DNA of 64,000 nt from Geodermatophilus bullaregiensis. Lineage in GTDB: Bacteria > Actinomycetota > Actinomycetes > Mycobacteriales > Geodermatophilaceae. The notes beneath the pieces are model-generated. The model was not told the DNA's origin. It was given only the letters and a program-made list of their open reading frames with translations, and ran no database searches. The stretch spans positions 248,001-312,000 of the forward strand of contig NZ_JAFBCJ010000001.1 of NCBI RefSeq assembly GCF_016907675.1. The letters are read 5' to 3'. The position numbers were made by a program, and so were the translations under genes. Shown piece by piece: positions 27,212 to 60,093 of the stretch (its first letter is position 1; each line of letters starts with the position of its first letter).

Positions 27212-27234
27212 ATGTCCTTACAAAGTCTTGACAT
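27212..27234. promoter_or_regulatory. IolR-like sites in iolR/iolC divergent promoter
   Basis: Two overlapping 12-mers 11 bases apart: atgtccttacaa (27212-27223) and aagtcttgacat (27223-27234). Both fit the pattern TGTC-NN-GACA with mismatches, and the outer halves (catgtc at 27211 and gacatg at 27230) are complementary. From memory, the corynebacterial IolR motif has the form KGWCHTRACA; each 10-mer core matches 9 of 10 positions. Confidence 0.6.
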
Positions 27235-27298
27235 GAGCGTGTGTCCCGGAGCACAGTCCCAGGGGCAGGCGGACCGGCGAGCAGGGGGACGGAGCACC

Positions 27299-28261
27299 GT
27301 GGGAAACGCCCGGGAGATGGTCGTGATGGGCCGCAGTGGGGTCGACGTCTACCCCCTGCAGGTCGGCGTCGGACTCGAGGACGTCGAGACGTTCGGCAAG
27401 TTCCTCGGCGGCAGTGCCGCGAACGTGTCGGTCGCCGCGGCCCGGCTGGGCCACGCCACCGCCCTGGTCACCGGCGTCGGCGACGACCCGTTCGGCCGGT
27501 TCGTGCGGCGGGCCCTGCGCGAGCTGGGCGTCGACGACGGCCTCGTGGTGGTCGACCCGGCCCACCCGACGCCGGTCACCTTCTGCGAGATCTTCCCTCC
27601 CGACGACTTCCCGCTGTACTTCTACCGCCGGCCCACCGCCCCGGACCTGCAGATCCGTCCCGAGGACCTGGACACCTCGGCCATCCGGGACGCCGGCCTG
27701 TTCTGGGCGACGGTGACCGGCCTGTCCGAGGAGCCGAGCCGGTCGGCCCACCACGCCGCGTGGGAGGCCCGGGGACGGCGCCGGCACACCGTGCTCGACC
27801 TGGACTACCGGCCGATGTTCTGGACGTCGCGGGAGGAGGCCACGGCGCAGGTGCGCGCGGCCCTCCCCCACGTCACGGTCGCCGTCGGCAACCGCGAGGA
27901 GTGCGAGGTCGCGGTCGGGGAGACCGACCCCGACCGCGCCGCCGACGCGCTGCTCGACGCCGGGGTGGAGCTGGCGATCGTCAAGCAGGGCCCCCGCGGG
28001 GTCCTGGGCAAGACCCGCACCGAGCGGGTCGTCGTCCCGCCCACGCCGGTCGAGGTGGTCAACGGCCTCGGCGCCGGTGACGCCTTCGGCGGGTCACTGG
28101 CCCACGGCCTGCTCACCGGCCTCCCGCTGGAGCAGGTGCTGCGCAACGCCAACGCCGCCGGCGCCATCGTCGCCTCCCGGCTGGAGTGCTCCACCGCGAT
28201 GCCGACCGCCGCCGAGATCGAGTCCCACGTCACCGTCTCCCTGGAGGGCACCCGTGTCTGA
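27299..28261 (+). CDS. iolC: 5-dehydro-2-deoxygluconokinase
   Basis: PfkB/ribokinase-family kinase that phosphorylates 5-dehydro-2-deoxy-D-gluconate (DKG), the fifth step of myo-inositol degradation. 320 residues from GTG 27299 (GGAG upstream). The N-terminal MGRSGVDVYPLQVG and KFLGGSAANVSVAAARLG segments bind sugar, and NGLGAGDAFGG near the C terminus holds the catalytic base Asp261 and anion hole. First gene of an eight-gene operon, overlapping the aldolase-like gene by eight bases. Confidence 0.95.
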   Translation: MGNAREMVVMGRSGVDVYPLQVGVGLEDVETFGKFLGGSAANVSVAAARLGHATALVTGVGDDPFGRFVRRALRELGVDDGLVVVDPAHPTPVTFCEIFPPDDFPLYFYRRPTAPDLQIRPEDLDTSAIRDAGLFWATVTGLSEEPSRSAHHAAWEARGRRRHTVLDLDYRPMFWTSREEATAQVRAALPHVTVAVGNREECEVAVGETDPDRAADALLDAGVELAIVKQGPRGVLGKTRTERVVVPPTPVEVVNGLGAGDAFGGSLAHGLLTGLPLEQVLRNANAAGAIVASRLECSTAMPTAAEIESHVTVSLEGTRV

Positions 28262-29177
28262 CACCGCCCTGGCCCCCACCGAGGTGCTCGGCGCCCCGCC
28301 GGTGTGCACCACCTACGCCGAGGTCACCGAGCTGCGCAGCCGGGACCCGCAGGCCATCGGCCGGGCCCTGGCCGCGCGCCGCCGGCGGCCGGCGTTCCTC
28401 CCCGAGGACGGTCGGCTCATGCTCGTCGCCGCCGACCACCCGGCCCGCGGCGCCCTGTCCGCCCAGGGGCGGCCGACGGCGATGAACAGCCGCACCGACA
28501 TGCTCGACCGGCTCCGGACCGCGCTCGCCCGCCCCGGCGTCGACGGCCTGCTCGCCACCGCGGACGTCGCCGAGGACCTGCTGCTGCTCGGTGCGCTCGA
28601 GGAGAAGGTCGTGGTGGCCTCGATGAACCGTGGCGGGCTGGCCGGTGCCAGCTTCGAGCTCGACGACCGGATGACCGGTTACGACGTCGCCGGCGTGGTC
28701 GAGGCCCGGTTCGACGCGGCCAAGATGCTCAACCGGATCGACCTCGACGACCCCGGCACGGTCGGGATGCTGGAGCGGTCCGGGAGCGCGGTCACCGAGC
28801 TCGCCCGGGCCGGGGTCGTGGCCATGCTCGAGCCCTTCCTGTCGCGGCGCGTCGACGGGCGGGTCGCCAACGACCTCAGCCCCGACGGGGTGATCAAGTC
28901 GGTGCACATCGCCCAGGGGCTCGGCGCCACCTCGGCCTACACCTGGCTCAAGCTGCCGGTGGTCGCCGAGATGGAGCGGGTCATGGACGCCACCACCCTC
29001 CCCACCCTGCTGCTCGGCGGGGACCCCTCCCGCCGGCCCGAGGAGACCTACGCCAGCTGGCGCGACGCCCTGGCGCTGCCCGCGGTCCGGGGCCTCGTCG
29101 TCGGCCGCACGCTGCTCTACCCGCCGGACGACGACGTCGCCGCCGCCGTGGACACCGCGGTCTCCTTGGTGCACTGA
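28254..29177 (+). CDS. (beta/alpha)8 aldolase-like protein of the inositol cluster (Cgl0159 family)
   Basis: 307 residues, GTG 28254 with GGAGG upstream, overlapping iolC by eight bases. Conserved segments are MLVAADHPARGAL, MNRGGLAGASFELDDRMTGYD and the MLEPFLS and YTWLKLP strands; the lysine in the last one is in place for a Schiff-base (class I) aldolase. Proteins of this family occur in the iol clusters of corynebacteria and streptomycetes. No iolJ-type class II aldolase is present, so this protein probably cleaves DKG phosphate to dihydroxyacetone phosphate and malonate semialdehyde. Family membership is fairly sure; the reaction is inferred. Confidence 0.82.
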   Translation: MSDTALAPTEVLGAPPVCTTYAEVTELRSRDPQAIGRALAARRRRPAFLPEDGRLMLVAADHPARGALSAQGRPTAMNSRTDMLDRLRTALARPGVDGLLATADVAEDLLLLGALEEKVVVASMNRGGLAGASFELDDRMTGYDVAGVVEARFDAAKMLNRIDLDDPGTVGMLERSGSAVTELARAGVVAMLEPFLSRRVDGRVANDLSPDGVIKSVHIAQGLGATSAYTWLKLPVVAEMERVMDATTLPTLLLGGDPSRRPEETYASWRDALALPAVRGLVVGRTLLYPPDDDVAAAVDTAVSLVH

Positions 29178-29178
29178 C

Positions 29179-29236
29179 GAAGGGCCCTCGTGCCCCCCAC
29201 CGCTCGCGAGCTCGCGGCGGGCCCCTGCAGGAGGGC
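29179..29236 (+). repeat. GC-rich 3'-end repeat element, copy A
   Basis: Starts two bases after the aldolase-like stop with gaagggccctcgtgcccccc, followed by accgctcgcgagctcgcggc and gggcccctgcaggagggcc. The core cgcgagctcgcg (29205-29216) is a perfect palindrome and the outer arms ggccctcgtgc and gcaggagggcc pair with one mismatch, so the whole can fold into a long hairpin. Nearly identical to the element after the GntR gene (5311-5360). Inside the iol operon it could weaken readthrough between the first two genes and iolB. Confidence 0.7.
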
Positions 29237-29286
29237 CGGGGCCGCCTCGGCAAGCCGCCGTCCTCCCCATCGCAGAGGAGCAGCAC

Positions 29287-30192
29287 ATGACCGCGACCAC
29301 CGAGTCGCTGCACCTGCCCGCCGGCACCGCCGCCACCGGCCCGTACGCCCTCGAGGTGACGCCGGAGTCCGCCGGCTGGGGGCACTCGAGCCTGCGGGTG
29401 CTCGGGCTGGCCGCCGGAGGCCGCCACACGCTGGAGACCGGCCCCGACGAGGTCGTCGTCGTCCCGCTGGAAGGCGGTCTGGGCATCGAGTGCGACGGGG
29501 AGGTCCTGACCCTCGCCGGCCGCAGCGACGTCTTCGCCGGGCCGACCGACTTCGCCTACCTCCCGCGGGAGGCCACCGCGACACTGTCCAGCCCCGGCGG
29601 CGGGCGCTTCGCCCTCTGCGGCGCCCGCGCCCGCCGGCGGCTGCCGGTCCGCTACGGCCCGGCCGCCGACGTGCCGGTCGAGCTGCGCGGGGCCGGCCGG
29701 TGCAGCCGCCAGGTGAACAACTTCGCGACCGCGGACGTCTTCGAGGCCGACGCGATCATCGCCTGCGAGGTGATCACCCCCGGCGGCAACTGGTCGTCGT
29801 ACCCGCCGCACAAGCACGACGAGTCCTCCGAGGTGGAGACCGAGCTCGAGGAGATCTACTACTTCGAGGTGGCGCCCGGGCCGGGAGGGCAGCCGGGCCT
29901 GGCCTACCAGCGGGTCTACGGCACACCCGATCGGCCGATCGACGTGCTGGCCGAGGTGCGCGACCGCGACGTGGTCCTCATCCCGCACGGCTGGCACGGT
30001 CCGTCGATCGCCGCCCCCGGCCACGACCTCTACTACCTCAACGTCATGGCCGGTCCCGGGGCCGAGCGCGCCTGGCGGATCGTCGACGACCCCGAGCACG
30101 CCTGGATCCGCGGCACCTGGGCCGCCGAGCCGATCGACCCCCGCCTCCCCCTGCACGACCCTGCGACCCCGAACGGAGAGTCCCGACCGTGA
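29287..30192 (+). CDS. iolB: 5-deoxy-glucuronate isomerase
   Basis: Bicupin isomerase of myo-inositol degradation that converts 5-deoxy-glucuronate to DKG. 301 residues, ATG 29287 with GAGGAG upstream. The metal-binding motif PPHKHDE places histidines at about 175 and 177 in the second cupin, with the matching glutamate in EEIYYFEV and the last histidine in GWHGPSIA. Overlaps iolD by four bases (GTGA). Confidence 0.96.
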   Translation: MTATTESLHLPAGTAATGPYALEVTPESAGWGHSSLRVLGLAAGGRHTLETGPDEVVVVPLEGGLGIECDGEVLTLAGRSDVFAGPTDFAYLPREATATLSSPGGGRFALCGARARRRLPVRYGPAADVPVELRGAGRCSRQVNNFATADVFEADAIIACEVITPGGNWSSYPPHKHDESSEVETELEEIYYFEVAPGPGGQPGLAYQRVYGTPDRPIDVLAEVRDRDVVLIPHGWHGPSIAAPGHDLYYLNVMAGPGAERAWRIVDDPEHAWIRGTWAAEPIDPRLPLHDPATPNGESRP

Positions 30193-32120
30193 GCGAGTTC
30201 CCGCCGCCGGCCGACCTGGAGACGGTGCGGCTGACCGTCTCCCAGGCCGTGGTGCGCTTCCTGGCGCAGCAGTACACCGAGCGCGACGGGCAGCGGCAGC
30301 GGCTGTTCGCCGGTTGCTTCGGCATCTTCGGGCACGGCAACGTCGCCGGGCTCGGCCAGGCGCTGCTGCAGGCCGAGGTCGACACCCCCGGCACCCTCCC
30401 CTACGTGCTCGGGCGCAACGAGCAGGCCGTCGTGCACACCGCCGTGGCCTACGCCCGGGCCAAGGACCGGCTGCAGACCTGGGCGGTGTCCACCAGCGTC
30501 GGCCCGGGCTCGACGAACACGCTCACCGGCGCGGCACTGGCGACCATCAACCGGCTGCCGGTGCTGCTGCTCCCGGCCGACACCTTCGCCACCCGCTCGG
30601 CCGGCTCCCTGCTGCAGGAGCTGGAGCGGCCCGACAGCGGCGACGTGACCGTCAACGACGCGTTCCGGCCGGTGTCGCGGTACTTCGACCGCATCTGGCG
30701 GCCCGAGCAGCTGCCCGGCGCGCTGCTGGGCGCGATGCGGGTGCTCACCGACCCGGCCGAGACCGGTGCGGTCACCCTCTGCTTCCCGCAGGACGTGCAG
30801 GCCGAGGCGTTCGACTGGCCGGTCGAGCTGTTCGCCGAGCGCACCTGGCACGTCGGCCGGCCGCTGCCCGAGCCGGCCGCCCTGCAGCGCGCCGTCGACG
30901 TCATCCGCTCGGCCCGCCGGCCGCTGGTCGTCGCCGGCGGCGGGGTCGTCTACTCGCAGGCCACCGAGGCGCTGGACGCCTTCGCGACCGCCACCGGCAT
31001 CCCGGTCGGGCAGACCCAGGCCGGCAAGGGTGCCCTGCCCTACGACCACCCGCAGTCGGTGGGCGCGATCGGCTCCACCGGGACGACGGCGGCCAACGCG
31101 CTGGCCCGCGAGGCCGACGTCGTCATCGGGATCGGCACCCGCTACCAGGACTTCACCACCGCCTCGCGCACCGCCTTCAACGACCCCGGCGTGCGGTTCG
31201 TCAACGTCAACGTCGCCGCGATGGACGCCGCCAAGCACGCCGGCGTGACCGTGCAGGCCGACGCGCGGGAGACCCTCACCGCGCTCACCGACGCGCTGGC
31301 CGGCTGGTCGGTCGACGACGCCTACCGGGCCCGCACCGCGGAGCTCGCCGCCGAGTGGGAGGCCACCGTCGAGGCCGCGTACCACCCGGAGGTGCCCAGC
31401 GCCGGCGAGGGCGGCCGGCTGACCCAGAACGAGGTCATCGGGGTCGTCAACGAGGTCTCCGCCCCACGCGACGTCGTGGTCTGCGCAGCGGGGTCCATGC
31501 CCGGGGACCTGCACAAGATGTGGCGGGTCCGCGACCGCAAGGGCTACCACGTCGAGTACGGCTACTCGACCATGGGTTATGAGATCCCCGGTGGCATCGG
31601 CATCCGGATGGCCAGCCCCGACCGCGACGTGTTCGTCATGATCGGCGACGGCTCCTACCTGATGATGCCGACCGAGCTGGTCACCGCCGTCCAGGAGGGC
31701 GTCAAGATCGTCGTCGTCCTGGTCCAGAACCACGGCTTCGCCTCGATCGGCGCCCTGTCGGAGCAGCTGGGGTCCCAGCGCTTCGGCACCCGCTACCGCT
31801 ACCGCGCGGCCAACGGCCGGCTGGAGGGCGATGTGCTGCCGGTGGACCTGGCCGCCAACGCCGCGAGCCTCGGCGTCGACGTCCTCATCGCCCAGGACGG
31901 GCCCAGCCTCGAGGCGGCGCTGCGCAAGGCCAAGGCGAGCGACCGGACGACGGTCGTGCACGTCGAGACCGACCCGCTCATCGACGCGCCCTCCAGCCAG
32001 TCGTGGTGGGACGTGCCGGTCAGCGAGGTCTCGACGCTGTCGAGCACGCAGGAGGCCCGCGCCGTCTACGACCGCTGGAAGGCCGTCCAGCGTCCCTTCC
32101 TCGGTCCGTCCCAGCCGTGA
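30189..32120 (+). CDS. iolD: 3D-trihydroxycyclohexane-1,2-dione acylhydrolase
   Basis: Thiamine diphosphate enzyme that hydrolyses the ring C-C bond of 3D-(3,5/4)-trihydroxycyclohexane-1,2-dione to 5-deoxy-glucuronate, the ring-opening step. 643 residues, the usual length. Cofactor-activating Glu78 is in GRNEQAV, and the diphosphate motif runs from GDGSYLMMPTELVTA (about 486) to Asn514 in NHGF. Domain order is pyrimidine-binding, central and diphosphate-binding, as in acetohydroxyacid synthase relatives. GTG 30189 overlaps the iolB stop. Confidence 0.97.
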   Translation: MSEFPPPADLETVRLTVSQAVVRFLAQQYTERDGQRQRLFAGCFGIFGHGNVAGLGQALLQAEVDTPGTLPYVLGRNEQAVVHTAVAYARAKDRLQTWAVSTSVGPGSTNTLTGAALATINRLPVLLLPADTFATRSAGSLLQELERPDSGDVTVNDAFRPVSRYFDRIWRPEQLPGALLGAMRVLTDPAETGAVTLCFPQDVQAEAFDWPVELFAERTWHVGRPLPEPAALQRAVDVIRSARRPLVVAGGGVVYSQATEALDAFATATGIPVGQTQAGKGALPYDHPQSVGAIGSTGTTAANALAREADVVIGIGTRYQDFTTASRTAFNDPGVRFVNVNVAAMDAAKHAGVTVQADARETLTALTDALAGWSVDDAYRARTAELAAEWEATVEAAYHPEVPSAGEGGRLTQNEVIGVVNEVSAPRDVVVCAAGSMPGDLHKMWRVRDRKGYHVEYGYSTMGYEIPGGIGIRMASPDRDVFVMIGDGSYLMMPTELVTAVQEGVKIVVVLVQNHGFASIGALSEQLGSQRFGTRYRYRAANGRLEGDVLPVDLAANAASLGVDVLIAQDGPSLEAALRKAKASDRTTVVHVETDPLIDAPSSQSWWDVPVSEVSTLSSTQEARAVYDRWKAVQRPFLGPSQP

Positions 32121-32166
32121 CCCACCCGCACCCCGCCGTGAACCACCCGTCCCAGAGGAGGACCGC

Positions 32167-33159
32167 ATGAGCGCGGACAGCCAGGTCGCGCCGGCACCGC
32201 AGCAGCAGACCGGCAGGAGCCGGATCAGGGTCGGGTCGGCGCCCGACTCGTGGGGCGTCTGGTTCCCCGACGACCCGGCACAGGTGCCGTGGCAGCGCTT
32301 CCTCGACGAGGTCAGCGCCTGCGGCTACGAGTGGATCGAGCTGGGGCCCTACGGCTACCTGCCCACCGAACCGGCGCAGCTGTCCGACGAGCTCGCCGCG
32401 CGCGGCCTGCAGGTGTCGGCCGGCACGGTGTTCGAGCACCTGCACCGTCCCGACTCCTGGGAGGCGGTGTGGGGTCAGGTGAGGGACGTCGCCGCGCTGA
32501 CCCAGGCCATGGGCGGCACCCACGTCGTCGTCATCCCCGACACCTTCCGCGACCAGAAGACCGGCGCCGACGTCGAGTCCCGCGACCTCACCCCCGACCA
32601 GTGGCGGGCGAAGACGACCGGCGTGACGCAGCTGGGGAAGGCGGTGCAGGAGGAGTACGGCCTGTCCATCGCCTTCCACCCGCACGCGGAGACGCACGTG
32701 GGCTGGCAGCGCGACATCGAGCGGTTCCTCGCCGACACCGACCCGCAGTACGTGCCGCTGTGCCTGGACACCGGGCACGTCAGCTACTACCGCGGTGACA
32801 ACCTGGACCTGATCCGCCGCTACCCCGAGCGGATCGGCTACCTCCACCTCAAGCAGGTCGACCCTGCGGTGATCGACCGGGTGCTGGCGGAGGACATCAC
32901 CTGGGCGGCTGCGGTGCCGATGGGCGCCATGACCGAGCCGCCGAACGGTGTCCCGGCGTACCCGCCGCTGTTCGAGGCGATCGAGGAGCACGGGCTGGAC
33001 GTGTTCGCGATCGTCGAGCACGACCTCTACCCCTGTCCGCCGGACGTGCCCTTCCCGATCGCGCAGCGGACCCACCGCTACATCGGCAGCTGCGGGTTCC
33101 CCTCGCTGCAGCTCGGCTCCCCGAGGACCCCCACCACCGGATCGGAGACCCAGGCGTGA
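32167..33159 (+). CDS. iolE: Myo-inosose-2 dehydratase
   Basis: TIM-barrel dehydratase that removes water from 2-keto-myo-inositol. 330 residues from ATG 32167 with GAGGAGGA upstream. Barrel landmarks are [52 protein letters not shown] and the terminal [10 protein letters not shown], supplying the conserved Glu, Asp and His metal ligands. The GTGA overlap couples it to the dehydrogenase that makes its substrate. Confidence 0.94.
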
Positions 33160-34229
33160 CCACCGCCGAGACCCGCGCCGGGGCGCTCCCGGACCTCGCC
33201 GACGTCCCCGCGCGCGACCTGCGGGTCGCTGTGCTCGGTGTCGGGATGATGGGCGCCGACCACGTCGCCCGCCTCTACAGCCGCATCTCCGGGGCGCAGG
33301 TCGTCGCGGTCAGCGACGCCTTCGCCGACAAGGCCGAGCAGGTGGCCGCCGGCGTGCCCGGCTGCCGGGTGATCGGCGACCCGCTGGCCGCTATCGCCGA
33401 CGACGACGTCGACGCCGTCCTCATCGCCACCCCCGGCCAGTACCACCAGGAGCAGGTGCTGGCGTGCATCGAGCGCGGCATCCCGGTGCTGTGCGAGAAG
33501 CCGCTGACCATGGAGGCCGAGAGCTCACTGGCGCTCGTGCGGGCCGAGGACGCCCACGCCGCCCGCACCGGCCGTCGGCTGGTCACGGTGGGCTTCATGC
33601 GGCGCTTCGACCCCGAGTACGCCGAGCTGAAGGCGCTGCTCGACTCCGGCGGGCTCGGGGAACCGCTGGTCGTGCACTGCGCACACCGCAACGCCGCCGT
33701 CCCGCCGCACTTCACCAGCGAGATGATGGTCAGCGACTCGGTGGTGCACGAGGTCGACGTCGCCCGGTTCCTGCTGGACGAGGAGGTCGCCGCGGTCACG
33801 GTGCTCCGGCCGCGGGCGACCCGGCACGCCGTCGCCGGCCAGTCCGACCCGCTGCTGGTGCTGTTCGAGACCACCGGTGGCCGGATGGTCGACGTCGAGT
33901 GCTTCGTCAGCACCGGCGTCGGCTACGAGGTGCGCACCGAGGTGGTCGGCGAGGACGGCAGCGCGATGATCGGCCTGGACGCCGGCCTGGTCCGCACCTC
34001 CGGGAGCCCGTCGGGTGCGGCCCGGTCGACGAGCATCGCCCCGGACTTCCGGCAGCGGTTCGGCCGCGCCTACGACATCGAGCTGCAGCGGTGGGTCGAC
34101 GCCGCCCGCCGCGGTGAGGTCGACGGCCCGGGCGCGTGGGACGGCTACGCCGCCCAGGCCGTCTGTGCCGCCGGCATCGAGGCGCTGCACAGCGGGCAGC
34201 GCACCGAGGTCCGGCTGGAGCCACGATGA
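33156..34229 (+). CDS. iolG: Inositol 2-dehydrogenase (Gfo/Idh/MocA family)
   Basis: Oxidises myo-inositol to 2-keto-myo-inositol with NAD. 357 residues, the GTG start overlapping iolE by four bases. The Rossmann motif GVGMMGADH is at about residue 28, EKPL holds the catalytic Lys115, and the substrate domain has [14 protein letters not shown] and a VHEVDVARF segment with the catalytic histidine. A close paralog lies at 52446-53453 with the same HCAHRN-VPPH signature. Confidence 0.92.
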
Positions 34230-35101
34230 GGATCGCGCTGGACCCGCAGATGCTGCGCGACGTCCCGCTGCTCGAGCTGCCCGACGTGGTGGCCGGCATG
34301 GGCTACGAGTGGATCGAGCTCTCGCCCCGCGAGGACTTCATCCCGTTCTTCAAGCACCCGCGGGTGGACACCGCCACGGTGCGGGCCCTCCGCTCCAGGC
34401 TGGCCGACGCCGGCGTCGGCGTCACCTCGCTGCTGCCGGTGATGCGCTGGTCGGGCCCGGGCGAGGTGGAGCGGCAGGCCGCCGTCCGCTACTGGAAGCG
34501 GGCGATCGAGATCTGCGTCGAGCTCGGCGTGGACACGCTCAACTCGGAGTTCAACGGCCGGCCCGAGGCGCCGGAGCTCGCCGAGGCGATGTTCTGGCGG
34601 TCGATGGAGGAGCTGCTGCCGACCTTCGAGCGCGAGGGCGTCAAGCTCGCACTCGAGCCGCACCCCGACGACTTCATCGAGCTCGGCCACCCGGCGGTCG
34701 ACATGGTGCGCGGTATCGACTCGCCGTGCGTCAGCTTCCTGTACTGCATGCCGCACACGTTCCACCAGGGTGACGACGCGGCCGGGATCATCGCCTCCGC
34801 CGGCGACCTGCTCACCCACGTGCACGTCGCCGACTCGATGGACCACCGTGCCTCGGACGGGCTGCGCTACATCACCAACCCCCCGGGCAACACCGTCCGC
34901 GTCCACCAGCACATGGAGCTCGGCCGCGGTGACGTGGACGCCGACGAGGCCTTCGCCGCGTTGGCGGGGATCGGCTTCGACGGCGTCCTCACGACCTGCG
35001 TCTTCGGCTGGGACGACGAGGCCCGCGAGTCCGGCACCCGGATGCTCTCCGCCATCCGCGAGCTGGTCACCAAGCACTTCCCCGACGGAACCACCCCCTG
35101 A
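34226..35101 (+). CDS. iolH: Sugar phosphate isomerase/epimerase of the iol cluster (IolH-like)
   Basis: 291-residue AP-endonuclease-2-fold TIM barrel. It starts [20 protein letters not shown] and has [34 protein letters not shown] and [13 protein letters not shown], the last ones supplying metal ligands. This sequence type accompanies actinobacterial iol operons. The reaction is unsettled: isomerisation between inosose isomers or a role in minor inositols has been proposed for relatives. ATGA overlap with iolG indicates coupled translation. Confidence 0.85.
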
Positions 35102-35118
35102 ACCGAGAGAGGCACCCC

Positions 35119-36612
35119 ATGCCCACCTCCATCCCGCACTGGATCGACGGCGCCCGCCGCGAGGGCACCAGCGGCCGCACCGCAGAGGTGACCGACTCCG
35201 CGACCGGCGAGGTCTCCGGCGAGGTCGCCCTCGCCTCGGTCGAGGACGTCGACGCGGCCGTGGCCGCCGCGACCGCGGCGTTCCCGGCCTGGCGTGACAC
35301 CTCGCTGGCCAAGCGCACCGCCGTGCTGTTCCGCTTCCGGGAGCTGCTCAACGACCGCAAGCCCGAGCTGGCCGCGATCATCACCGCCGAGCACGGCAAG
35401 GTCCTCGACGACGCCCTCGGTGAGGTCTCCCGCGGCCAGGAGGTCGTGGAGTACGCCTGCGGCGTCCCGTCGCTGGTGCGCGGCGGGTTCACCGAGAACG
35501 CCTCGACCAACGTCGACGTCTACTCGATCCGCCAGCCGCTCGGCCCGGTGGCGATCATCAGCCCGTTCAACTTCCCGGCGATGGTCCCGATGTGGTTCTT
35601 CCCCATCGCGATCGCGACCGGCAACACCGTCGTCCTCAAGCCCAGTGAGCAGGACCCGTCGGCCTCGCTGTGGGTCGCCGAGCTGTGGAAGGAGGCCGGT
35701 TTGCCCGACGGCGTGTTCAACGTCGCCCAGGGCGACAAGGTCGCCGTCGACCGGCTGCTGGAGCACCCCGACGTCCGGTCGGTGTCCTTCGTCGGGTCCA
35801 CGGCGATCGCCCGCTACGTCTACGAGACCGGTACCCGGAACGGCAAGCGGGTCCAGGCCCTGGGCGGGGCGAAGAACCACATGGTCGTGCTGCCCGACGC
35901 CGACCTCGACCTGGCCGCCGACGCGGCGGTGAACTCCGGGTTCGGGTCGGCCGGCGAGCGCTGCATGGCGATCAGCGCGATCGTCGCCGTCGGCGGGATC
36001 GGCGACGACCTGGTCGCCCGGATCGCCGAGCGCACCGCCACGCTGCGCACCGGCGACGGCCGCAAGGGCGCCGACATGGGCCCGCTGATCAGCAAGCGGC
36101 ACCGCGACCGCGTCGCCTCCTACGTGGAGGCCGGTGAGAAGGAGGGCGCCAAGCTCGTCGTCGACGGCCGCGAGGTGACCCCCGACGGCGGGGAGAACGG
36201 CTTCTGGCTCGGCCCCACCCTGGTCGACCACGTCGAGCCACCGATGAGCGTCTACACCGACGAGATCTTCGGCCCGGTGCTCTCGGTGCTGCGCGTGGAC
36301 ACCTACGAGCACGCCGTCGAGCTGATCAACCGCAACGAGTACGGCAACGGCACCGCCATCTTCACCAACGACGGCGGCGCGGCCCGGCGCTTCCAGCACG
36401 AGGTCGAGGTCGGGATGATCGGCATCAACGTGCCCATCCCGGTGCCCATGGCCTACTACTCGTTCGGCGGGTGGAAGAACAGCCTGTTCGGCGACTCGCA
36501 CGCGCACGGCGCCGAGGGCGTGCACTTCTTCACCCGCGGCAAGGTCGTCACCAGCCGCTGGCTGGACCCCAGCCACGGCGGCCTGAACCTCGGCTTCCCG
36601 CAGAACGCCTGA
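35119..36612 (+). CDS. iolA: Methylmalonate-semialdehyde dehydrogenase (CoA-acylating)
   Basis: Last step of the pathway: converts malonate semialdehyde to acetyl-CoA and CO2 with NAD and CoA. 497 residues. Signature segments are ISPFNFPAMVPMWFFPIAIA, the nicotinamide loop FVGSTAIARYVY, and the catalytic Cys282 in GSAGERCMA; the Glu of ordinary aldehyde dehydrogenases is replaced, as usual for the CoA-dependent branch (LGGAKNHMVV). It may also act in valine degradation (mmsA). It follows iolH by 17 bases and ends the operon; a repeat element and a hairpin follow. Confidence 0.96.
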   Translation: MPTSIPHWIDGARREGTSGRTAEVTDSATGEVSGEVALASVEDVDAAVAAATAAFPAWRDTSLAKRTAVLFRFRELLNDRKPELAAIITAEHGKVLDDALGEVSRGQEVVEYACGVPSLVRGGFTENASTNVDVYSIRQPLGPVAIISPFNFPAMVPMWFFPIAIATGNTVVLKPSEQDPSASLWVAELWKEAGLPDGVFNVAQGDKVAVDRLLEHPDVRSVSFVGSTAIARYVYETGTRNGKRVQALGGAKNHMVVLPDADLDLAADAAVNSGFGSAGERCMAISAIVAVGGIGDDLVARIAERTATLRTGDGRKGADMGPLISKRHRDRVASYVEAGEKEGAKLVVDGREVTPDGGENGFWLGPTLVDHVEPPMSVYTDEIFGPVLSVLRVDTYEHAVELINRNEYGNGTAIFTNDGGAARRFQHEVEVGMIGINVPIPVPMAYYSFGGWKNSLFGDSHAHGAEGVHFFTRGKVVTSRWLDPSHGGLNLGFPQNA

Positions 36613-44493: not shown

Positions 44494-45495
44494 GTGACGC
44501 GGACGGGCCCCGAGCGGAGGCCGACCCTGGCCGACGTCGCCGCCCGTGCCGGGGTCTCCACCGCCCTCGTGTCGATCGTCATGCGCGAGGCACCCGGGGC
44601 CAGCGCGGCGACCCGGGAGCGGGTGCGCCGAGCCGCCGACGAGATCGGCTACCGGCCGGACAGCCGCGCCCGTCTCCTGCGCAGCTCCCGCAGCCGGCTG
44701 CTCGGCGTGGTCTTCGGCGTGCAGCACGCCTTCCACGGCGACCTGCTGACCGGGCTCTACGACGCGGCCGAGCGGGCCGGGTACGAGCTGGCGCTGAGCG
44801 CCGTCACGCCGGGACGCGGCGAGCAGCCGGCGGTCGACAGTCTGCTGCGGGACCGCTGCGAAGCGCTGGTCCTGCTCGGCCCCCAGTCCCCCGCGGCCAC
44901 CCTCACCGACCTGGCGACGCGTCTGCCGGTCGTCGTCCTCGCCCGCCCGGTGCGGTCCGCCACGGTGGACGTCGTCCGCACCGCCGACGACGAGGGCATG
45001 CGCCTGGCCGTCGACCACCTGGTGGCGCTCGGGCACCGCGACGTCGTCCACGTCGACGGCGGACGGGCTCCCGGCGCGGCGGAACGGCGCCGGGGGTACC
45101 GGGAGGCGCTGCAGCGGCACGGGCTCCCGGCGCGGGTCCTCGCCGGCGGGCTCACCGAGGACGACGGTGCCGCCGCTGCACGGAGGCTGCTCGAGGGGCC
45201 GCTGCCGAGCGCCGTCACCGTGTTCAACGACCGCTGCGCTCTGGGCGTGCTCGACGTCCTCCGCCGGGCGGGCCGGACCGTGCCCGGGGAGGTGAGCGTC
45301 GTGGGCTACGACGACAGCCGGATCGCCCGGCTCTCCTCGGTCGACCTCACGTCCGTCGCCCAGGACGTCGAACAGCTGACCACGCTCGCCGTCGGGCGCG
45401 CCCTCGCCCGGCTCGACGGCACCCCCGTCGACCGGCGCGAGCTCGTCGTCCCGCCCCGTCTGGTCGTGCGGAGCAGCACCGCCCCGCCCTCGTGA
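44494..45495 (+). CDS. LacI-family regulator
   Basis: 333 residues. The DNA-binding domain reads TLADVAARAGVSTALVSIVM followed by a hinge helix (RARLLRSSRSRLLG) and the two-lobed sugar-binding domain. GTG 44494 has no clear ribosome binding site, so it may be leaderless. It probably represses the divergent dehydrogenase-isomerase pair and itself. It resembles the LacI protein at 48015-49058 throughout (ALVLLGP, DVVR-ADDEG, VVGYDDS), so the two are paralogs. Confidence 0.92.
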   Translation: MTRTGPERRPTLADVAARAGVSTALVSIVMREAPGASAATRERVRRAADEIGYRPDSRARLLRSSRSRLLGVVFGVQHAFHGDLLTGLYDAAERAGYELALSAVTPGRGEQPAVDSLLRDRCEALVLLGPQSPAATLTDLATRLPVVVLARPVRSATVDVVRTADDEGMRLAVDHLVALGHRDVVHVDGGRAPGAAERRRGYREALQRHGLPARVLAGGLTEDDGAAAARRLLEGPLPSAVTVFNDRCALGVLDVLRRAGRTVPGEVSVVGYDDSRIARLSSVDLTSVAQDVEQLTTLAVGRALARLDGTPVDRRELVVPPRLVVRSSTAPPS

Positions 45496-47962: not shown

Positions 47963-47980
47963 AACCGGTTGTCAGGACAA
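47963..47980. promoter_or_regulatory. Overlapping LacI-like and IolR-like sites, P450 fusion promoter
   Basis: aaccggtt (47963-47970, widening to caaccggttg) is a LacI-style palindrome. It abuts ttgtcaggacaa (47969-47980), a perfect palindrome whose core TGTCAGGACA equals the tautomerase site. Both are 70-90 bases upstream of the P450 start and would let two repressors share the promoter. Confidence 0.55.
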
Positions 47981-48014: not shown

Positions 48015-49058
48015 TCAGACCCCTGCGGGCGCCGGACCGGTCGTCCCCCGCACCACGAGGCGCGGCGGGACGACGACCTCGCGGTGCGCGGTGCGGCCGC
48101 CCTCGAGCCGCTCGACCACGGCGGCCACCGCGTGCCGCATCAGCTGTCCGGAGTCCTGGCTGACCGTGGTCAGGTCGATGTGCGCCAGCCGGGACAGCGG
48201 GCTGTCGTCGTAGCCGACGACGGAGACCGCCCCCGGGACGTCGACCCCGCCGCGCAGCAGGGTGTCGAGCACCCCCACCGCCGAGCGGTCGTTGTAGGTG
48301 ATCACGGCCGTCGGGGGCAGGTCGGACGCGAACAGCTCCCGCGCGGCGCGCGCCCCCGACTCCTCGCCGTGGTCCCCGGCGACGACCTGCAGGTGCCCGC
48401 CGAGCCGGTGCCGGCGCATCGCCCGCTGGTATCCCCGGTGCCGGCCGGCGGGGATGACCCCGGGGCCGCCGTCGACGTAGGCGATCCGGCGGTGGCCGAG
48501 GCCGACCAGGTGGTCGACGGCCTGCCCGACGCCCTCGTCGTCGGCCGCGCGGACGACGTCCACACCGGCCGACGGCACCGGGCGGCCGACGGCCACCACG
48601 GGCAGCTGCCGGTCCAGCGCGCTCAACCGGGAGGCGGGGGCCTCCGGGCCGAGGAGGACCAGCGCCTCGCAGCGCGAGTCGAGCAGCGTCTCGACCGCCC
48701 GCCCCTCGTCCCGGGTGCGGGTCACCGTGCTGAGCACCAGGTCGTACCCGTGCTCCTCGGCCGCCTCGTGGACGTCCTCGACGAGCTGGGCGTGGAAGCT
48801 GCTGCGGACGTCCATCACGACGCCGATCAGCCTGCTGCGCCGGCGGGCCAGCAGGCTGGCGGCGCGGTCGGGCCGGTACCCGAGCCGGGCGGCGGCGTCG
48901 AGCACCCGCTCGCGGGTGGCGCTGCTGGGTCCGGCGACGCCGCGCAGCACCAGCGACACCGACGCCGTCGAGACGCCGGCCTCGGCCGCGACGTCCTGCA
49001 GTCGCGGACGACGCAGCGACTCCTCTGCACTCAGGACGACCACCTCCTGCCTTGACAC
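48015..49058 (-). CDS. LacI-family regulator
   Basis: 347 residues from GTG 49058. The DNA-binding domain is RLQDVAAEAGVSTASVSLVL (about residues 19-38) and the sugar-binding domain ends VVGYDDSPLSRLAHIDLTTV. The start is uncertain, as AGGAG is directly before a GTG at 49043 and not at a proper distance from either. It is divergent from the dehydrogenase at 49198 and precedes the P450 fusion on its own strand by 125 bases, so either could be a target. A TTAAAGCGCTTTAA operator lies 23 bases upstream. Confidence 0.9.
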   Translation of the reverse strand: MSRQEVVVLSAEESLRRPRLQDVAAEAGVSTASVSLVLRGVAGPSSATRERVLDAAARLGYRPDRAASLLARRRSRLIGVVMDVRSSFHAQLVEDVHEAAEEHGYDLVLSTVTRTRDEGRAVETLLDSRCEALVLLGPEAPASRLSALDRQLPVVAVGRPVPSAGVDVVRAADDEGVGQAVDHLVGLGHRRIAYVDGGPGVIPAGRHRGYQRAMRRHRLGGHLQVVAGDHGEESGARAARELFASDLPPTAVITYNDRSAVGVLDTLLRGGVDVPGAVSVVGYDDSPLSRLAHIDLTTVSQDSGQLMRHAVAAVVERLEGGRTAHREVVVPPRLVVRGTTGPAPAGV

Positions 49059-55510: not shown

Positions 55511-55512
55511 GG

Positions 55513-55614: not shown

Positions 55615-56814
55615 ATGACCGCACCCGTCACCGCCCGGACCACCCCCGGCTGGTTCACCGCGGACGACTGCCGCCTGGAGGACTTCCGCGCGGTCGTCGA
55701 GACGACCACCGACCTCGCCGCCTATCCGCACGCCGACGAGGTGCGGGAGAACGTCCTGGTCTACGGCTCGCGGCTGCGCGACTCCGTCGCCACCCCCGAG
55801 GGGCGCCGGGACGTGCAGACCGAGCTGGCCCGCGCGCTCGCCGACGGGCCGGGGATCGTCGTCTTCGCCGGCGCCTTCCCCGACACCGGCGTCGTCGACC
55901 GGGCCACGGCCGTCTTCGAGGCGCTGATCGCCGAGCAGCAGGCCGCCGGTGTGACGGCCGGGGACCACTTCGCCAAGCCGGGCGCGAACGACCGGGTGTG
56001 GGGCGCGCTGGACAAGTTCGCCGTCCGGGACCCGGAGGCCTTCGCCGCCTACTACGGCAACGACGTGACCGCGCTGGTCTCGGAGGCGTGGCTGGGCCGC
56101 GGCTACCAGCTCACCAGCCAGGTCAACGTGGTCAACCCCGGCGGCCAGGCCCAGGTCGCCCACCGCGACTACCACCTCGGCTTCATGTCCGAGGAGCAGG
56201 CCCTGGCCTACCCGGCCCACGTGCACCAGCTCTCCCCCGTCATGACCCTGCAGGGGGCGGTGGCCCACTGCGACATGCCGGTGGAGACCGGGCCGACGAT
56301 GTACCTGCCGCACTCGCAGAAGTACGCCCCTGGCTACGTCGCCTTCCACCGGTCGGAGTTCACCGCGTACTTCGACGAGCACTTCGTCCAGCTGCCGCTG
56401 CGCACGGGCGACGCCGCCTTCTTCAACCCGGCGCTGTTCCACGGCGCCGGCACCAACCGGTCGTCCGGCGTCCGGCGCATGGCCAACCTGCTGCAGGTCT
56501 CCTCCGCCTTCGGCCGGGCGATGGAGACCGTCGACCGCGACGCGATGTGCCGCGCCCTGTACCCGGTCCTGCTCGCGCAGCGGGCCGCCGGCGTCGACGA
56601 GCGCACGCTGCGCACCGTCCTCGCCGCCTCGGCCGAGGGCTACGCCTTCCCGACCAACCTCGACCGCGACCAGCCGATCGGCGGCCTGGCCCCGGAGACC
56701 CAGGCCGAGCTGGTCTGGCGAGCCCTGCAGGAGGAGTGGACGCCCGACGCCCTGGACGCCGAACTCACCGCCCAGGCCGGACGGCACGCCAGCGGGCTCG
56801 GCCCGGACGACTGA
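55615..56814 (+). CDS. Phytanoyl-CoA dioxygenase (PhyH) family protein
   Basis: 399-residue Fe(II)/2-oxoglutarate oxygenase-like protein. The facial triad is present: His183 and Asp185 in HRDYHLGF and His276 in ALFHGAGTNRS, with Arg282 placed to bind 2-oxoglutarate. An N-terminal helical region of about 130 residues is longer than in typical PhyH. ATG 55615 has GGACGAGG upstream. Proteins of this group hydroxylate or demethylate many small molecules. The neighbourhood of aldo/keto reductase and cyclitol dehydrogenases suggests a sugar-like substrate, but this is unproven. Confidence 0.88.
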   Translation: MTAPVTARTTPGWFTADDCRLEDFRAVVETTTDLAAYPHADEVRENVLVYGSRLRDSVATPEGRRDVQTELARALADGPGIVVFAGAFPDTGVVDRATAVFEALIAEQQAAGVTAGDHFAKPGANDRVWGALDKFAVRDPEAFAAYYGNDVTALVSEAWLGRGYQLTSQVNVVNPGGQAQVAHRDYHLGFMSEEQALAYPAHVHQLSPVMTLQGAVAHCDMPVETGPTMYLPHSQKYAPGYVAFHRSEFTAYFDEHFVQLPLRTGDAAFFNPALFHGAGTNRSSGVRRMANLLQVSSAFGRAMETVDRDAMCRALYPVLLAQRAAGVDERTLRTVLAASAEGYAFPTNLDRDQPIGGLAPETQAELVWRALQEEWTPDALDAELTAQAGRHASGLGPDD

Positions 56815-57018: not shown

Positions 57019-57053
57019 GTGACGGGAGGCGGAGTCCGAGGGCGCTGGAGGAC

Positions 57054-57869
57054 TCAGCGCTTCAGCTCGTGCTGGAGCTCGGCGAGCTCCTGGCCACCGG
57101 CCATCTCGGCGGTGAGCTCCTCGAGCGTGACCTCCGAGCGCTTCTTGTCCAGCACCCGGCGACCGAGCTTCAGGATGATGAAGTGGTCGCCCACCAGGTA
57201 GGCGTGGTGCGGGTTGTGGGTGATGAACACGACGCCGAGGCCGGCGTCACGGGCCGCGGCCGTGTACTTGAGCACCACACCGGACTGCTTGACACCCAGC
57301 GCGGCGGTCGGCTCGTCGAGGATCAGCACCCGGGCACCGAAGTAGACCGCGCGGGCGATCGCGACGCACTGCCGCTGACCGCCGGAGAGGGTCCCGATCG
57401 GCTGGTTGATGTCCTTGACCGTGATGCCCATCTTCTTGAGCTCGGTGTCGGCGATCTCGCGCATCGACTTGATGTCCAGCGGGGCCAGGGGGTACCTGCC
57501 CTTCCGGAGCTCCGAGCCGAGGAAGAAGTTCCGCCACACCTCCATGAGCCCGACGACGGCGAGGTCCTGGTAGACCGTGGCGATCCCGGTGTCGAGGGAC
57601 TCGCGGGGCGAGGAGAAGTGCCGGTCCTCCCCGTGGACCTTCAGGGTGCCCTCGCTGTGCGGGTGCAGGCCTGAGATGATCTTGATCAGGGTGGACTTGC
57701 CGGCGCCGTTGTCCCCCAGGACGCAGGTGACCTCGCCGGCGTTGACCGTCAGGTTGACGCCCTCCAGCGCGCGGATCGCGCCGTAGGCCTTGCCCACGCC
57801 CTGCATCTCGACGAGGGGTGTGCCCTTCGTCAGATCGGACGCAGCGTGCTCGGCGATGGTGTCGGTCAT
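57054..57869 (-). CDS. Sugar ABC transporter ATP-binding protein (CUT2, single domain)
   Basis: 271 residues. Walker A GDNGAGKST is at 52-60, the Q-loop is in ATVYQDLAVV, the signature LSGGQRQ is at about 164, and Walker B with DEPTAAL at about 187 precedes the H-loop. Most ribose-type importers use a fused two-domain ATPase of about 500 residues; this one has one domain, as in the FrcA fructose importer branch, and would dimerise. One base separates it from the permease stop. A terminator follows. Probably powers uptake of an inositol or a sugar. Confidence 0.93.
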   Translation of the reverse strand: MTDTIAEHAASDLTKGTPLVEMQGVGKAYGAIRALEGVNLTVNAGEVTCVLGDNGAGKSTLIKIISGLHPHSEGTLKVHGEDRHFSSPRESLDTGIATVYQDLAVVGLMEVWRNFFLGSELRKGRYPLAPLDIKSMREIADTELKKMGITVKDINQPIGTLSGGQRQCVAIARAVYFGARVLILDEPTAALGVKQSGVVLKYTAAARDAGLGVVFITHNPHHAYLVGDHFIILKLGRRVLDKKRSEVTLEELTAEMAGGQELAELQHELKR

Positions 57870-57870
57870 G

Positions 57871-58944
57871 TCACTTCCTCTGTGCCGCGTAGTTCTTGAT
57901 GTACAGGTTGACCAGGACGGCGAGCAGCAACATCACGCCCAGGAAGGTGCGGAACCAGTTCGGGTCCCAGCCGGCGAAGACGATCCCCTGGGTGGTCATG
58001 CCGAAGATGACCGCGCCGAGGGCCGAGCCGACCGCCGAGCCGTACCCGCCGGTGAGCAGCGCGCCGCCGACGACCGCGGCGATGATGTAGACGAACTCGT
58101 TCCCGACGCCGATGCCGGCCTGGACGGAGCTGAAGTTCATCAGCAGGTGCATCCCGAGGAACCAGGCGAGGAAGCCGACGGCCATGAACAGGCCGATCTT
58201 CACCTTCTTGACCGGTACACCGACCGCCCGGGCGCTGGCCTCGTTCCCGCCGGAGGCGAAGATCCAGTTGCCGACGCGGGTGCGCAGGAGCACCCAGGTG
58301 CCGATGGCCACGAACAGCACCCACCACAGCACCGTGATCTTCAGCGTGATGATGCCGAGGTCCACGTCGGAGGCGAAGACCGCCCGGGCCGAGGAGAAGC
58401 CGTCGAGCCGGCTCACGTTCGGGGAGGCGACCGCTCCGGTGATCAGCTTGGTCACGCCCAGGTTGATCCCCTGCAGGACGAAGAACGTGCTGAGTGTGAC
58501 CAGGAAGCTCGGGATCCCGGTGCGCACCACCAGGTACCCGTTGAGGAAGCCGATCGCCAGCGCCACGACGAGGCTGACGATCACGCCGACCCACACGTTG
58601 AGACTCAACTGGTAGCAGAACATCGCCGCGGTCAACGCCGCGGTCGTCACTGCCACACCGGAGGAGAGGTCGAACTCGCCGCCGATCATCAGCAGTGCCA
58701 CCCCGACCGCCACGATCCCGATCGTGGAGCTGGCGTAGAGGTAGGTCGACGCCGCCGGGAGGGTCCGGAACGTGGGCGCGACCGCGTAGAAGAAGGCGAA
58801 GATCGCGACGGCGGCGGCAAGGGCGCCGACCTCGGGTCGGGCGAGGACGCGGGAGAGCAATGACTTCTGGACCCGCGCCGGGCCGGCCGAGCCCGGCGGT
58901 GGGGCGGACGGTGCGGAGGGCTGTGTCGCCACGGACGAGCTCAT
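57871..58944 (-). CDS. Sugar ABC transporter permease (CUT2)
   Basis: 357 residues from ATG 58944 (GGAG upstream). A Ser/Pro/Ala-rich N terminus precedes about nine or ten membrane helices. The CUT2 hallmarks are GIVAVGVALLMIGGEFDLSSG, VVRTGIPSFLVTLSTFFVLQG and the cytoplasmic loop IFASGGNEASARAVGVPVKKVK that couples to the ATPase. Relatives transport ribose, inositol and other small sugars. Middle gene of a binding protein-permease-ATPase operon. Confidence 0.93.
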   Translation of the reverse strand: MSSSVATQPSAPSAPPPGSAGPARVQKSLLSRVLARPEVGALAAAVAIFAFFYAVAPTFRTLPAASTYLYASSTIGIVAVGVALLMIGGEFDLSSGVAVTTAALTAAMFCYQLSLNVWVGVIVSLVVALAIGFLNGYLVVRTGIPSFLVTLSTFFVLQGINLGVTKLITGAVASPNVSRLDGFSSARAVFASDVDLGIITLKITVLWWVLFVAIGTWVLLRTRVGNWIFASGGNEASARAVGVPVKKVKIGLFMAVGFLAWFLGMHLLMNFSSVQAGIGVGNEFVYIIAAVVGGALLTGGYGSAVGSALGAVIFGMTTQGIVFAGWDPNWFRTFLGVMLLLAVLVNLYIKNYAAQRK

Positions 58945-59014
58945 GTGCCTGCTCCAGGGGGCGTGAGGGGAGGAGGGGGAGCCGGGCACTGACCCGGCTC
59001 CCCCGCGAGCGGGA

Positions 59015-59995
59015 CTACCGGGTGTTGTTCTCGGTGTAGGGCTGGATCGCGTCGATGTTGCTCGAGTCGACGATCGACGGACCGGTCAGGACCGGACCGC
59101 CACCGCCGATGTCGTTGCCGTTGGTCAGGTTCAGCCACAGCGAGGTGACGGCCATGTAGCCCTGCACGTAGGGCTGCTGGTCGACCGAGAACGCGATGCC
59201 GCCGTCGGCGATCTGCTGGGCGACGTCGGCGTTCAGGTCGAACGTGGCCACCTGGGCCTGGCTGCCGGCGTCGGCGATGGACTGCTGCGCGGCCAGGGCG
59301 ATGTCGGCACCCAGGGCCACGACGTTGGCCACCGACGGGTCCTGCTGCAGCTTGGCGCCGATGGTCTGCTGCACCGACGGCAGGTCGCGGCCGTTGACGT
59401 AGAGGACCTCGGTGCCGGGGCTGGTCTTCGCCACCCCGGCGCAGCGCGTCTCCAGCTGGACCTGCCCCTGCTCCTGGATGACGCACACGGTCTTACCGGG
59501 GTTGTCCTGGCTGATCTTCGCGCCCACGGCCTGGCCGGCGAGGTCCTCGTTCGAGCCGAAGTACATGAGCAGGCCGTAGTCGAGGTACGCGTCGCCGCCG
59601 GCGTTGAACGCCACGGTCGGGATGCCTGCCTCGACCGCGGCCTGGGCGGCCGGCCCGATGGCGTCGGGGTTGGGCATGGTCACCGCCAGGCCGTCGACCT
59701 CGCTGCTCACCTGGTTCTGGATCAGGGTCGCCTGGTTGCCGGCGTCGGGGTCCTGCGAGTAGTTCAGCGTGATGTTGTGGTTCGCCGCGGCCGCTTCCGC
59801 GCCGTTGCGGATCTTGTCCCAGAACGTGTCGCCGGGGGCCTCGTGGGTGATCATCGCGATGGTGTACTCCTCGCCCGCGGCGGCACCCTCGCTCCCCTCG
59901 TCCTGAGCACCTCCCCCACTGCTGCACGCGGCGAGCGCCGTGGCGGCGGCGGTCACGGCCACCACCACCTGGAGCGATCTACGGGTGGTCCTCAT
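59015..59995 (-). CDS. Sugar ABC transporter substrate-binding lipoprotein (CUT2)
   Basis: 326 residues from ATG 59995 (GAGGAG upstream). Residues 1-24 form a lipoprotein signal with lipobox LAAC, followed by a flexible GSEGAAAGEE linker. The mature domain is a type 1 periplasmic binding fold (IAMITHEAPGDTFWDKIRNG, SSEVDGLAVTMPNPDAI, VAFNAGGDAY, VVALGADIALAAQ). Inositol- and ribose-binding proteins belong here. An IolR-like operator 87 bases upstream supports induction with the inositol genes; no direct ligand evidence exists. First gene of the transporter operon. Confidence 0.94.
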   Translation of the reverse strand: MRTTRRSLQVVVAVTAAATALAACSSGGGAQDEGSEGAAAGEEYTIAMITHEAPGDTFWDKIRNGAEAAAANHNITLNYSQDPDAGNQATLIQNQVSSEVDGLAVTMPNPDAIGPAAQAAVEAGIPTVAFNAGGDAYLDYGLLMYFGSNEDLAGQAVGAKISQDNPGKTVCVIQEQGQVQLETRCAGVAKTSPGTEVLYVNGRDLPSVQQTIGAKLQQDPSVANVVALGADIALAAQQSIADAGSQAQVATFDLNADVAQQIADGGIAFSVDQQPYVQGYMAVTSLWLNLTNGNDIGGGGPVLTGPSIVDSSNIDAIQPYTENNTR

Positions 59996-60081
59996 CAGCG
60001 TCTCCTCGTCCGGGTGGCCACCCCGCCGGCGGCCGCGGGCCTGCCCAGTCACCGGACGCCGACCCCGACGGCGCGATCCTC

Positions 60082-60093
60082 ATGTCTGGACAT
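60082..60093. promoter_or_regulatory. IolR-like site, ABC transporter promoter
   Basis: atgtctggacat is a perfect 5-2-5 inverted repeat, 87 bases upstream of the binding protein start. It differs from the 42498 site only in the two spacer bases. Extra half-sites (catg at 60098, atgtgaca near 60107) cluster beside it. Confidence 0.65.

Follow-up and report, generated by a model that had tools for sequence, protein, structure and literature searches.

A candidate operator of a GntR/UTRA regulator shared by inositol genes, a malonate semialdehyde decarboxylase homologue and a P450-reductase fusion in Geodermatophilus bullaregiensis

We analyzed a 64,000-nucleotide stretch of Geodermatophilus bullaregiensis DNA (hereafter the window; contig NZ_JAFBCJ010000001.1, positions 248,001 to 312,000) that carries an iol operon for inositol catabolism, a GntR/UTRA regulator gene divergent from iolC, a homologue of malonate semialdehyde decarboxylase (MSAD), a cytochrome P450 fused to its reductase, and an ATP-binding cassette (ABC) importer with its substrate-binding protein (SBP) (Table 1). 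The element of interest is the palindromic 10-mer TGTCNNGACA. Three exact copies are present in the window, at 42499, 47970 and 60083, and all three extend through A/T flanks to the palindrome WTGTCNNGACAW. The initial annotation had placed exact inverted repeats 40-90 bases before start codons, and we find them there, at 40 bp for the MSAD homologue (ATG at 42457), 79 bp for the P450 and 86 bp for the SBP, if the ATG at 59995 is its start. The two looser versions that it had described in the iolR/iolC promoter are overlapping one-mismatch (9/10) copies at 27213 (TGTCCTTACA) and 27224 (AGTCTTGACA), the second of them 64 bp from the GTG at 27299. Within the window alone, the number of exact sites is weakly above chance (a mean of 0.79 after shuffling, with three reached in 6 of 100 shuffles), and copies with at most one mismatch are not enriched (12, including the three exact ones, against 23.8 expected).

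The promoters share features beyond the 10-mer. A -35-like TTGACA hexamer lies inside AAGTCTTGACAT, and because of this resemblance to a -35 element the likely mode of action would be repression by blocking RNA polymerase. A AAAGTNTTGACA-like stretch lies directly downstream of the site in iolC promoters, and a second half-site is found 8 bp upstream in the MSAD promoters (GT core in 13 of 14) and the SBP promoters (14 of 14). The consensus of corynebacterial IolR, which we take to be KGWCHTRACA, would fit TGTCCTGACA; this consensus string was not found in open-licence PMC papers.

A comparison of orthologous promoters and a scan of the whole genome had been proposed along with the motif, and both gave results in its favor. 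The motif recurs before iolC, MSAD and SBP orthologues. In the iolR/iolC promoter, the best match was at least 9/10 in all 22 family loci fetched, these being loci of at least 84% identity, apart from six more distant family members; one of the 22 (L037) is a contig-edge fragment with its site in another place. Beyond the family, a site of at least 9/10 was found in six of the eight loci fetched. The MSAD promoter has a 10/10 site in all 14 full-length copies from the same genus, and an exact site also lies upstream of a partial same-genus copy (G021) left out of this count. All 14 SBP orthologues fetched from the family with at least 68% identity carry a site of 9/10 or better; this set is kept separate from second SBP copies in G003 (75%) and G031 (64%). 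Across the 5.2-Mb genome, the exact 10-mer was found 16 times compared to five times for the reversed pattern. When A/T flanks were required, five exact sites were found compared to none for the reversed control, three of them in the window and two at 919030 and 920350, and all five are in inositol loci; an exact 10-mer at 5124838 is without A/T flanks.

The sites at 919030 and 920350 mark a second, partly decayed iol locus (L098, G000:C1:912001-932000, at about 3300-9600 and 12023). Its contents include counterparts of window genes for a major facilitator superfamily transporter (90%), a FUSC-like protein (73%) and a TIM-barrel protein (98.5%), a LacI paralogue, and gene fragments corresponding to 30 residues of MSAD and 61 residues of IolC. 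A 9/10 site at 924023 (12023 in L098) precedes a Gfo/Idh-like gene at 12175.

The distribution of the motif points to the GntR/UTRA protein as the factor that would bind it. This protein has both the helix-turn-helix (HTH) domain of GntR regulators and a UTRA effector domain, its gene adjoins iol genes in relatives, and the conserved palindrome tracks the presence of the gene. Matches to the regulator at E<=1e-40 were found in 43 of the 98 genomes searched (its own included), and an orthologue at this threshold is present in 20 of 26 genomes of the same genus. Sites with the centers AG, CT, CA, TG or CG were found in 20 of 20 GntR-positive and 0 of 6 GntR-negative same-genus genomes, a count that excludes the centers GC, TC, AC, GA, GT, AA and AT; the Fisher value of 4e-6 for this co-occurrence overstates independence because the genomes are related, and with any center allowed two of the six GntR-negative genomes also carry a site. 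The HTH domain is better conserved than the UTRA domain in 36 of 37 other loci (L029 being the exception), and the recognition helix reads [SA]RPTxR in all 38 loci. A 20-bp form of the iolC footprint, TGTCNNGACAAASTNTTGAC, occurs at 38 places in 31 of 298 genomes of the order, compared to 0 for the reversed control. All 30 footprint loci fetched contain the GntR gene, iol genes or the importer; the footprint was written after iolC promoters had been viewed, 11 of these 30 loci having been seen earlier and 19 being new. Eight of the 38 places were without a fetched locus of their own, and the iolC promoter of the window itself is not an exact match to the 20-bp form.

Based on these sequence comparisons, we predict that the GntR/UTRA protein is an IolR-type repressor of inositol use and that its operator is TGTCNNGACA with A/T flanks. 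We assign this a probability of about 0.8, a figure that applies to the regulon and not to the substrate of the P450. Several observations weigh against it. Genome sites with at most one mismatch are just two-fold over the control (26 vs 13), which is near noise. The MSAD site is at least 9/10 in just one of five loci outside the genus, these including an MSAD gene on a 4.1-kb contig of a metagenome-assembled genome (MAG) from another family, which has no site (L103); five GntR-positive genomes of the same genus have no MSAD at 1e-20; and all seven SBP homologues of 44-50% identity in the same family are without the site. At the P450 promoter, one of the 12 full-length orthologues has an 8/10 site and four have chance-like (7/10) matches, and no site of at least 9/10 was found in the 400 bp before the P450 gene in 12 of 15 more distant loci (from Phycicoccus, Nostocoides, Pseudonocardia, Marmoricola, MAGs and Actinomycetospora). 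On the positive side, the P450 site is exact in six of the 12 full-length orthologues and 9/10 in one, exact in both of the split P450 orthologues checked, and present in all three Actinomycetospora among the distant loci (one exact, two 9/10). An exact MSAD site is also found in a Frankineae MAG (L196). The patchy P450 operator indicates that IolR control of this gene is likely in some lineages and was lost, absent or replaced in others. The view of the initial annotation that the GntR protein governs a dispersed cyclitol regulon is supported computationally by co-occurrence, by the orthologous iolC, MSAD and SBP promoters and by the footprint, with the amendment that the P450 site is patchy.

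We also considered extension of the regulon by the one-mismatch genome scan. One mismatch is carried by 21 of the 26 places, comprising the two at iolC, 17 examined loci, 924023, and 2151668, which is inside a coding frame. The genes beside the 17 were judged by gene calls and first residues, without family searches. The extension was rejected as mostly noise, its sole credible addition being the 924023 site before the Gfo/Idh-like gene.

The gene at the first exact operator had been described as a tautomerase gene not known to belong to inositol catabolism. The operator there is kept, and the description is amended in that the gene encodes an MSAD homologue, which fits inositol catabolism chemically. 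The protein aligns over its full length to MSAD and keeps the Pro (P1) next to the initiator Met as well as the residues aligned to D37 and R75, positions with assigned roles in MSAD. Counting against an MSAD activity, Arg73 of the Pseudomonas enzyme is replaced by Gln here, as it is in the FG41 enzyme, and for this reason we classify it as an MSAD homologue only. Breakdown of inositol yields malonate semialdehyde at the aldolase step, and IolA, also encoded in the window, oxidizes malonate semialdehyde; homology to MSAD is consistent with a pathway that makes this compound, and the protein would be a cofactor-free bypass of IolA. The MSAD family is known mainly from haloacrylate degradation. 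The known members, which we take to come from Pseudomonas pavonaceae and strain FG41 and to serve in that process, share the full-length alignment and the residues aligned to P1, D37 and R75 with the window protein, whereas the latter has the change from Arg73 to Gln and belongs to an inositol regulon. The link suggests a natural role for this decarboxylase family and corrects the annotation. In Bacillus subtilis, yodA, "similar to malonate semialdehyde decarboxylase", shares an expression table with iol genes in a report whose relevant passages draw no link between them (PMC11656851).

The importer SBP is probably inositol-binding based on its match to 4ru1, presumably a myo-inositol-bound SBP. 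Compared to the rhizopine SBP family NF052284, it scored 145.5 bits and did not reach the curated cut-off of 420, a difference from rhizopine (moc) catabolism, where the regulator is also of another type (MocR). According to the parts of one report that concern them, mocDEF takes part in the breakdown of rhizopines, a group with an O-methylated inositol amine among its members (PMC10107442).

The P450 fusion retains the heme motif (FGEGVHGCLG) and the flavin/NADH and plant-type 2Fe2S motifs. These are arranged in the order of heme, flavin mononucleotide (FMN)/NADH and 2Fe2S that characterizes CYP116B (class VII) fusions, and the layout is that of 6kbh (431 bits overall), which we take to be CYP116B46. 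The heme domain differs in its affinities. Membership in CYP116B calls for a heme domain more than 40% identical, whereas that of the window protein is 26-32% identical to nine other fused P450-reductases (6kbh itself is not among the counted identities), and 6kbh is not among the best 60 of 88 PDB matches to the heme domain alone. We rejected assignment to CYP116B on these grounds. Among the P450 loci, heme identity drops from at least 53% to at most 34% with nothing between, and this gap was used post hoc to divide them into 33 loci (at least 53%) and 40 others (at most 34%, or no heme domain seen). The inositol-linked heme domains form one clade (support 100/99), separate from CYP116B, in which fused forms and forms with the reductase split off occur together. 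Its hosts include Geodermatophilus, Blastococcus, Modestobacter, Pseudonocardia, Actinomycetospora, Phycicoccus, Nostocoides and Nocardioidaceae MAGs, covering four actinobacterial families (Geodermatophilaceae, Pseudonocardiaceae, Intrasporangiaceae and Nocardioidaceae).

The heme clade is linked to inositol genes. In the fetched DNA, homologues of the iol or island genes of the window were found at 32 of 33 heme-clade loci and at 1 of 40 other P450-reductase loci. The exception among the 33 is a 3.4-kb contig (L192), and the exception among the 40 (L228) is cut by a contig edge and is probably a clade member. A core iol gene is present at 20 of the 33; three of the 32 (L176, L178 and L198) lack one and have just one or two homologues of accessory genes. 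Exact operators number 23 in the 594 kb of the 33 loci, compared to 0 in the 753 kb of the other 40. In Geodermatophilus ruber (L194), genes for the P450, reductase, IolG-like dehydrogenase and isomerase follow in this order on one strand.

An operator common to inositol and P450 genes suggests that the P450 prepares plant inositol derivatives as food. Our tentative proposal, held with less than even confidence, is that it carries out oxidative O-demethylation of methyl-inositols. We favor this reaction because a user of methyl-inositols needs a demethylase, a dehydrogenase and an inosose isomerase, and the P450, reductase, IolG-like and isomerase genes lie in that order. For precedent, a P450 is described as demethylating 6-O-methyl-galactose in marine bacteria in the portion of the report that treats it (PMC10033563); the likeness considered is that of the proposed reaction, oxidative O-demethylation in sugar catabolism, and the marine enzyme differs in having separate redox partners and acting on algal galactose. 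The genome also encodes a mycothiol-dependent formaldehyde dehydrogenase (670 bits, cut-off 512.9). Evidence that detracts from demethylation is that this gene is 1.9 Mb away, and that no formaldehyde gene was recognized by eye in 11 islands, on which no family search was made. In a structure search with the heme domain, which returned ordinary bacterial P450s and no hint of a substrate, the nearest structures bind steroids, fatty acids, terpenes or macrolides, and the structure model is moderate (predicted local distance difference test score, 76) and uninformative on the pocket.

The P450 might serve cyclitol use through other chemistry, by hydroxylating the ring or oxidizing C-N or C-O bonds of an aminocyclitol or a glycosylated inositol, and a PhyH-family oxygenase of the island would then be the demethylase or its partner. 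The same island contains the PhyH gene, an aldo-keto reductase gene and several Gfo/Idh genes, and in Actinomycetospora (L181, L184 and L187) the PhyH gene has its own exact operator 71 bp upstream; we regard this alternative as a serious one, short of an even chance. It is improbable that the P450 lies near inositol genes by accident, as an island passenger whose chemistry (oxidation of aromatics or alkanes, for instance) has nothing to do with them. The patchy operator fits such an accident, as does the CYP116B-like layout, since in the sections of one report devoted to them the native roles proposed for CYP116B are oxidation of 2-hydroxyphenylacetate or of alkanes (PMC11889516). However, the island-gene homologues accompany the heme clade across four families, its heme domain is remote from those of the other fused enzymes, and exact or 9/10 sites recur before the P450 in all three Actinomycetospora.

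The island also encodes two LacI-family regulators, and we considered whether one of these, rather than the GntR protein, binds TGTCNNGACA. The LacI genes flank the P450 gene. With split P450s counted, the 12 of 26 same-genus genomes that match LacI regulator 2 at 1e-70 are also the ones that carry the P450, and a third LacI gene follows 20 bp after the site at 919030. However, eight genomes lacking both LacI proteins at 1e-70 (G001, G002, G004-G007, G010 and G023) keep an exact site before MSAD and one of at least 9/10 before iolC, and the LacI promoters carry conserved palindromes of their own, with an AACGTT core (CTAGAACGTTCTAG type) in 8 of 8 fetched orthologues and a AAGCGCTT core (TTAAAGCGCTTTAA type) in 10 of 12, own included in both cases. 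We rejected the LacI proteins as very unlikely binders of the motif; their two palindromes make it probable that no fewer than three separate regulators serve the island. A chance origin of the TGTCNNGACA palindromes, compatible with the shuffled windows, is refuted by conservation in orthologous promoters, by the footprint count of 38 vs 0 and by the inositol content of all 30 footprint loci, and its probability is negligible.

In the model that we propose, the GntR repressor would stay on or beside the -35 region of its target promoters until released by an inducer derived from inositol. The targets would be the iol operon, the inositol ABC importer and the MSAD gene and, in part of the lineage, also the P450-reductase fusion. 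The P450 may O-demethylate plant methyl-inositols such as pinitol and ononitol, and the adjoining IolG-like dehydrogenase and TIM-barrel isomerase could then pass the resulting inositol isomer on to the iol pathway. The MSAD homologue would convert malonate semialdehyde, released by iol cleavage of the last sugar phosphate, to acetaldehyde and CO2, bypassing IolA. Taken in full, this would mean an unnoticed clade of actinobacterial P450s with fused or adjacent reductases, dedicated to O-demethylation of methyl-inositols and controlled by IolR in some lineages, together with an acetaldehyde bypass through MSAD, a combination that we put forward with more doubt than assurance.

An IolR-type GntR repressor is already known; what is new is the make-up of this regulon, together with the P450 clade. 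In the passages of two reports that describe it, Corynebacterium glutamicum IolR belongs to the GntR type and represses genes for the transport and degradation of inositol (PMC9603128, PMC8634428). The same type of regulator is proposed here, likened by description and not by comparison of protein sequences, and the regulon differs in having an ABC importer, an MSAD homologue and a P450 fusion. In the open-licence PMC literature, covered as titles, abstract starts and selected passages, we found no paper that joins a P450 or MSAD to inositol catabolism, which does not prove absence. Physiological substrates of CYP116-type self-sufficient P450s are hard to determine, according to the section of a report that addresses them (PMC11889516); a P450 clade whose neighborhood points to one class of compound makes the substrate question testable with a few methyl-inositols. 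With the operator, genomes of related actinobacteria can be scanned in a simple way for inositol regulons, and the presence of fused and adjacent forms in one heme clade provides a natural series for studying P450 fusion.

Table 1. Positions of genes and candidate operators in the window.
Feature	Position	Strand	Basis or remark
GntR/UTRA (HutC-type) regulator, IolR-like	26346-27074	-	Pfam GntR 3.5e-13, UTRA 1.8e-37
iolR/iolC operator (predicted)	27212-27234	.	ATGTCCTTACAA (27212-27223) overlapping AAGTCTTGACAT (27223-27234)
iolC, 5-dehydro-2-deoxygluconokinase	27299-28261	+	GTG start predicted; TIGR04382 388 bits, cut-off 300 (run on open reading frame 27212-28261)
Rest of iol operon	28257-36612	+	NCBIfam
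iol operon open reading frame	28257-29177	+	no NCBIfam match at 1e-15
iolB	29287-30192	+	NCBIfam, above cut-off
iolD	30210-32120	+	NCBIfam, above cut-off
iolE-like	32119-33159	+	NCBIfam, below cut-off
iolG-like	33156-34229	+	NCBIfam, below cut-off
iol operon open reading frame	34226-35101	+	no NCBIfam match at 1e-15
iolA/MMSDH	35119-36612	+	NCBIfam MMSDH, above cut-off
MSAD homologue (earlier "tautomerase")	42065-42457	-	PDB 2aag 3.1e-33, 3mjz 8.6e-28; Pfam Tautomerase_2
Exact operator ATGTCAGGACAT (predicted)	42498-42509	.	MSAD promoter
TIM-barrel isomerase (AP_endonuc_2 family)	42603-43367	-	AP_endonuc_2 2.1e-26; TIGR03234 hydroxypyruvate isomerase 114.7 bits, below cut-off
Inositol-dehydrogenase-like Gfo/Idh/MocA enzyme	43373-44383	-	TIGR04380 302 bits, below cut-off 355; PDB 4hkt 1.8e-45
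Candidate LacI-type operator CTAGAACGTTCTAG	44397-44410	.	LacI/IolG-like divergent promoter
LacI-family regulator 1	44494-45495	+	domain match
P450-FMN/Fe2S reductase fusion, 757 aa, inositol-linked heme clade	45616-47889	-	domain and clade analysis
Exact operator TTGTCAGGACAA (predicted)	47969-47980	.	P450 promoter
LacI-family regulator 2	48015-49058	-	domain match
Candidate LacI-type operator TTAAAGCGCTTTAA	49081-49094	.	LacI regulator 2 promoter
ABC importer ATPase	57054-57869	-	domain match
ABC importer permease	57871-58989	-	domain match
ABC importer SBP	59015-59995	-	PDB 4ru1 4.9e-98, 331.7 bits
Exact operator ATGTCTGGACAT (predicted)	60082-60093	.	SBP promoter; ATGT half-site 8 bp upstream

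Additional observations were made on the islands and on related palindromes. The PhyH-family oxygenase gene of the window, at 55615-56814, recurs in the same islands, and its product has no PDB sequence relative at 1e-5. Palindromes of the TTGTCGCGACAA type, which have a GC center, number seven in G004 and four in G014, both of the same genus; as G014 is without the GntR gene, these may be the site of another regulator. The P450 and reductase are fused in some genomes and encoded by adjacent genes in others (L205-L207, L194, L196, L197 and L200). A short MAG contig assigned outside the family (L186, JAVEDU010000014.1) carries genes for the P450, IolG-like enzyme, isomerase and MSAD at 84-90% to the window, consistent with either misbinning or recent transfer.

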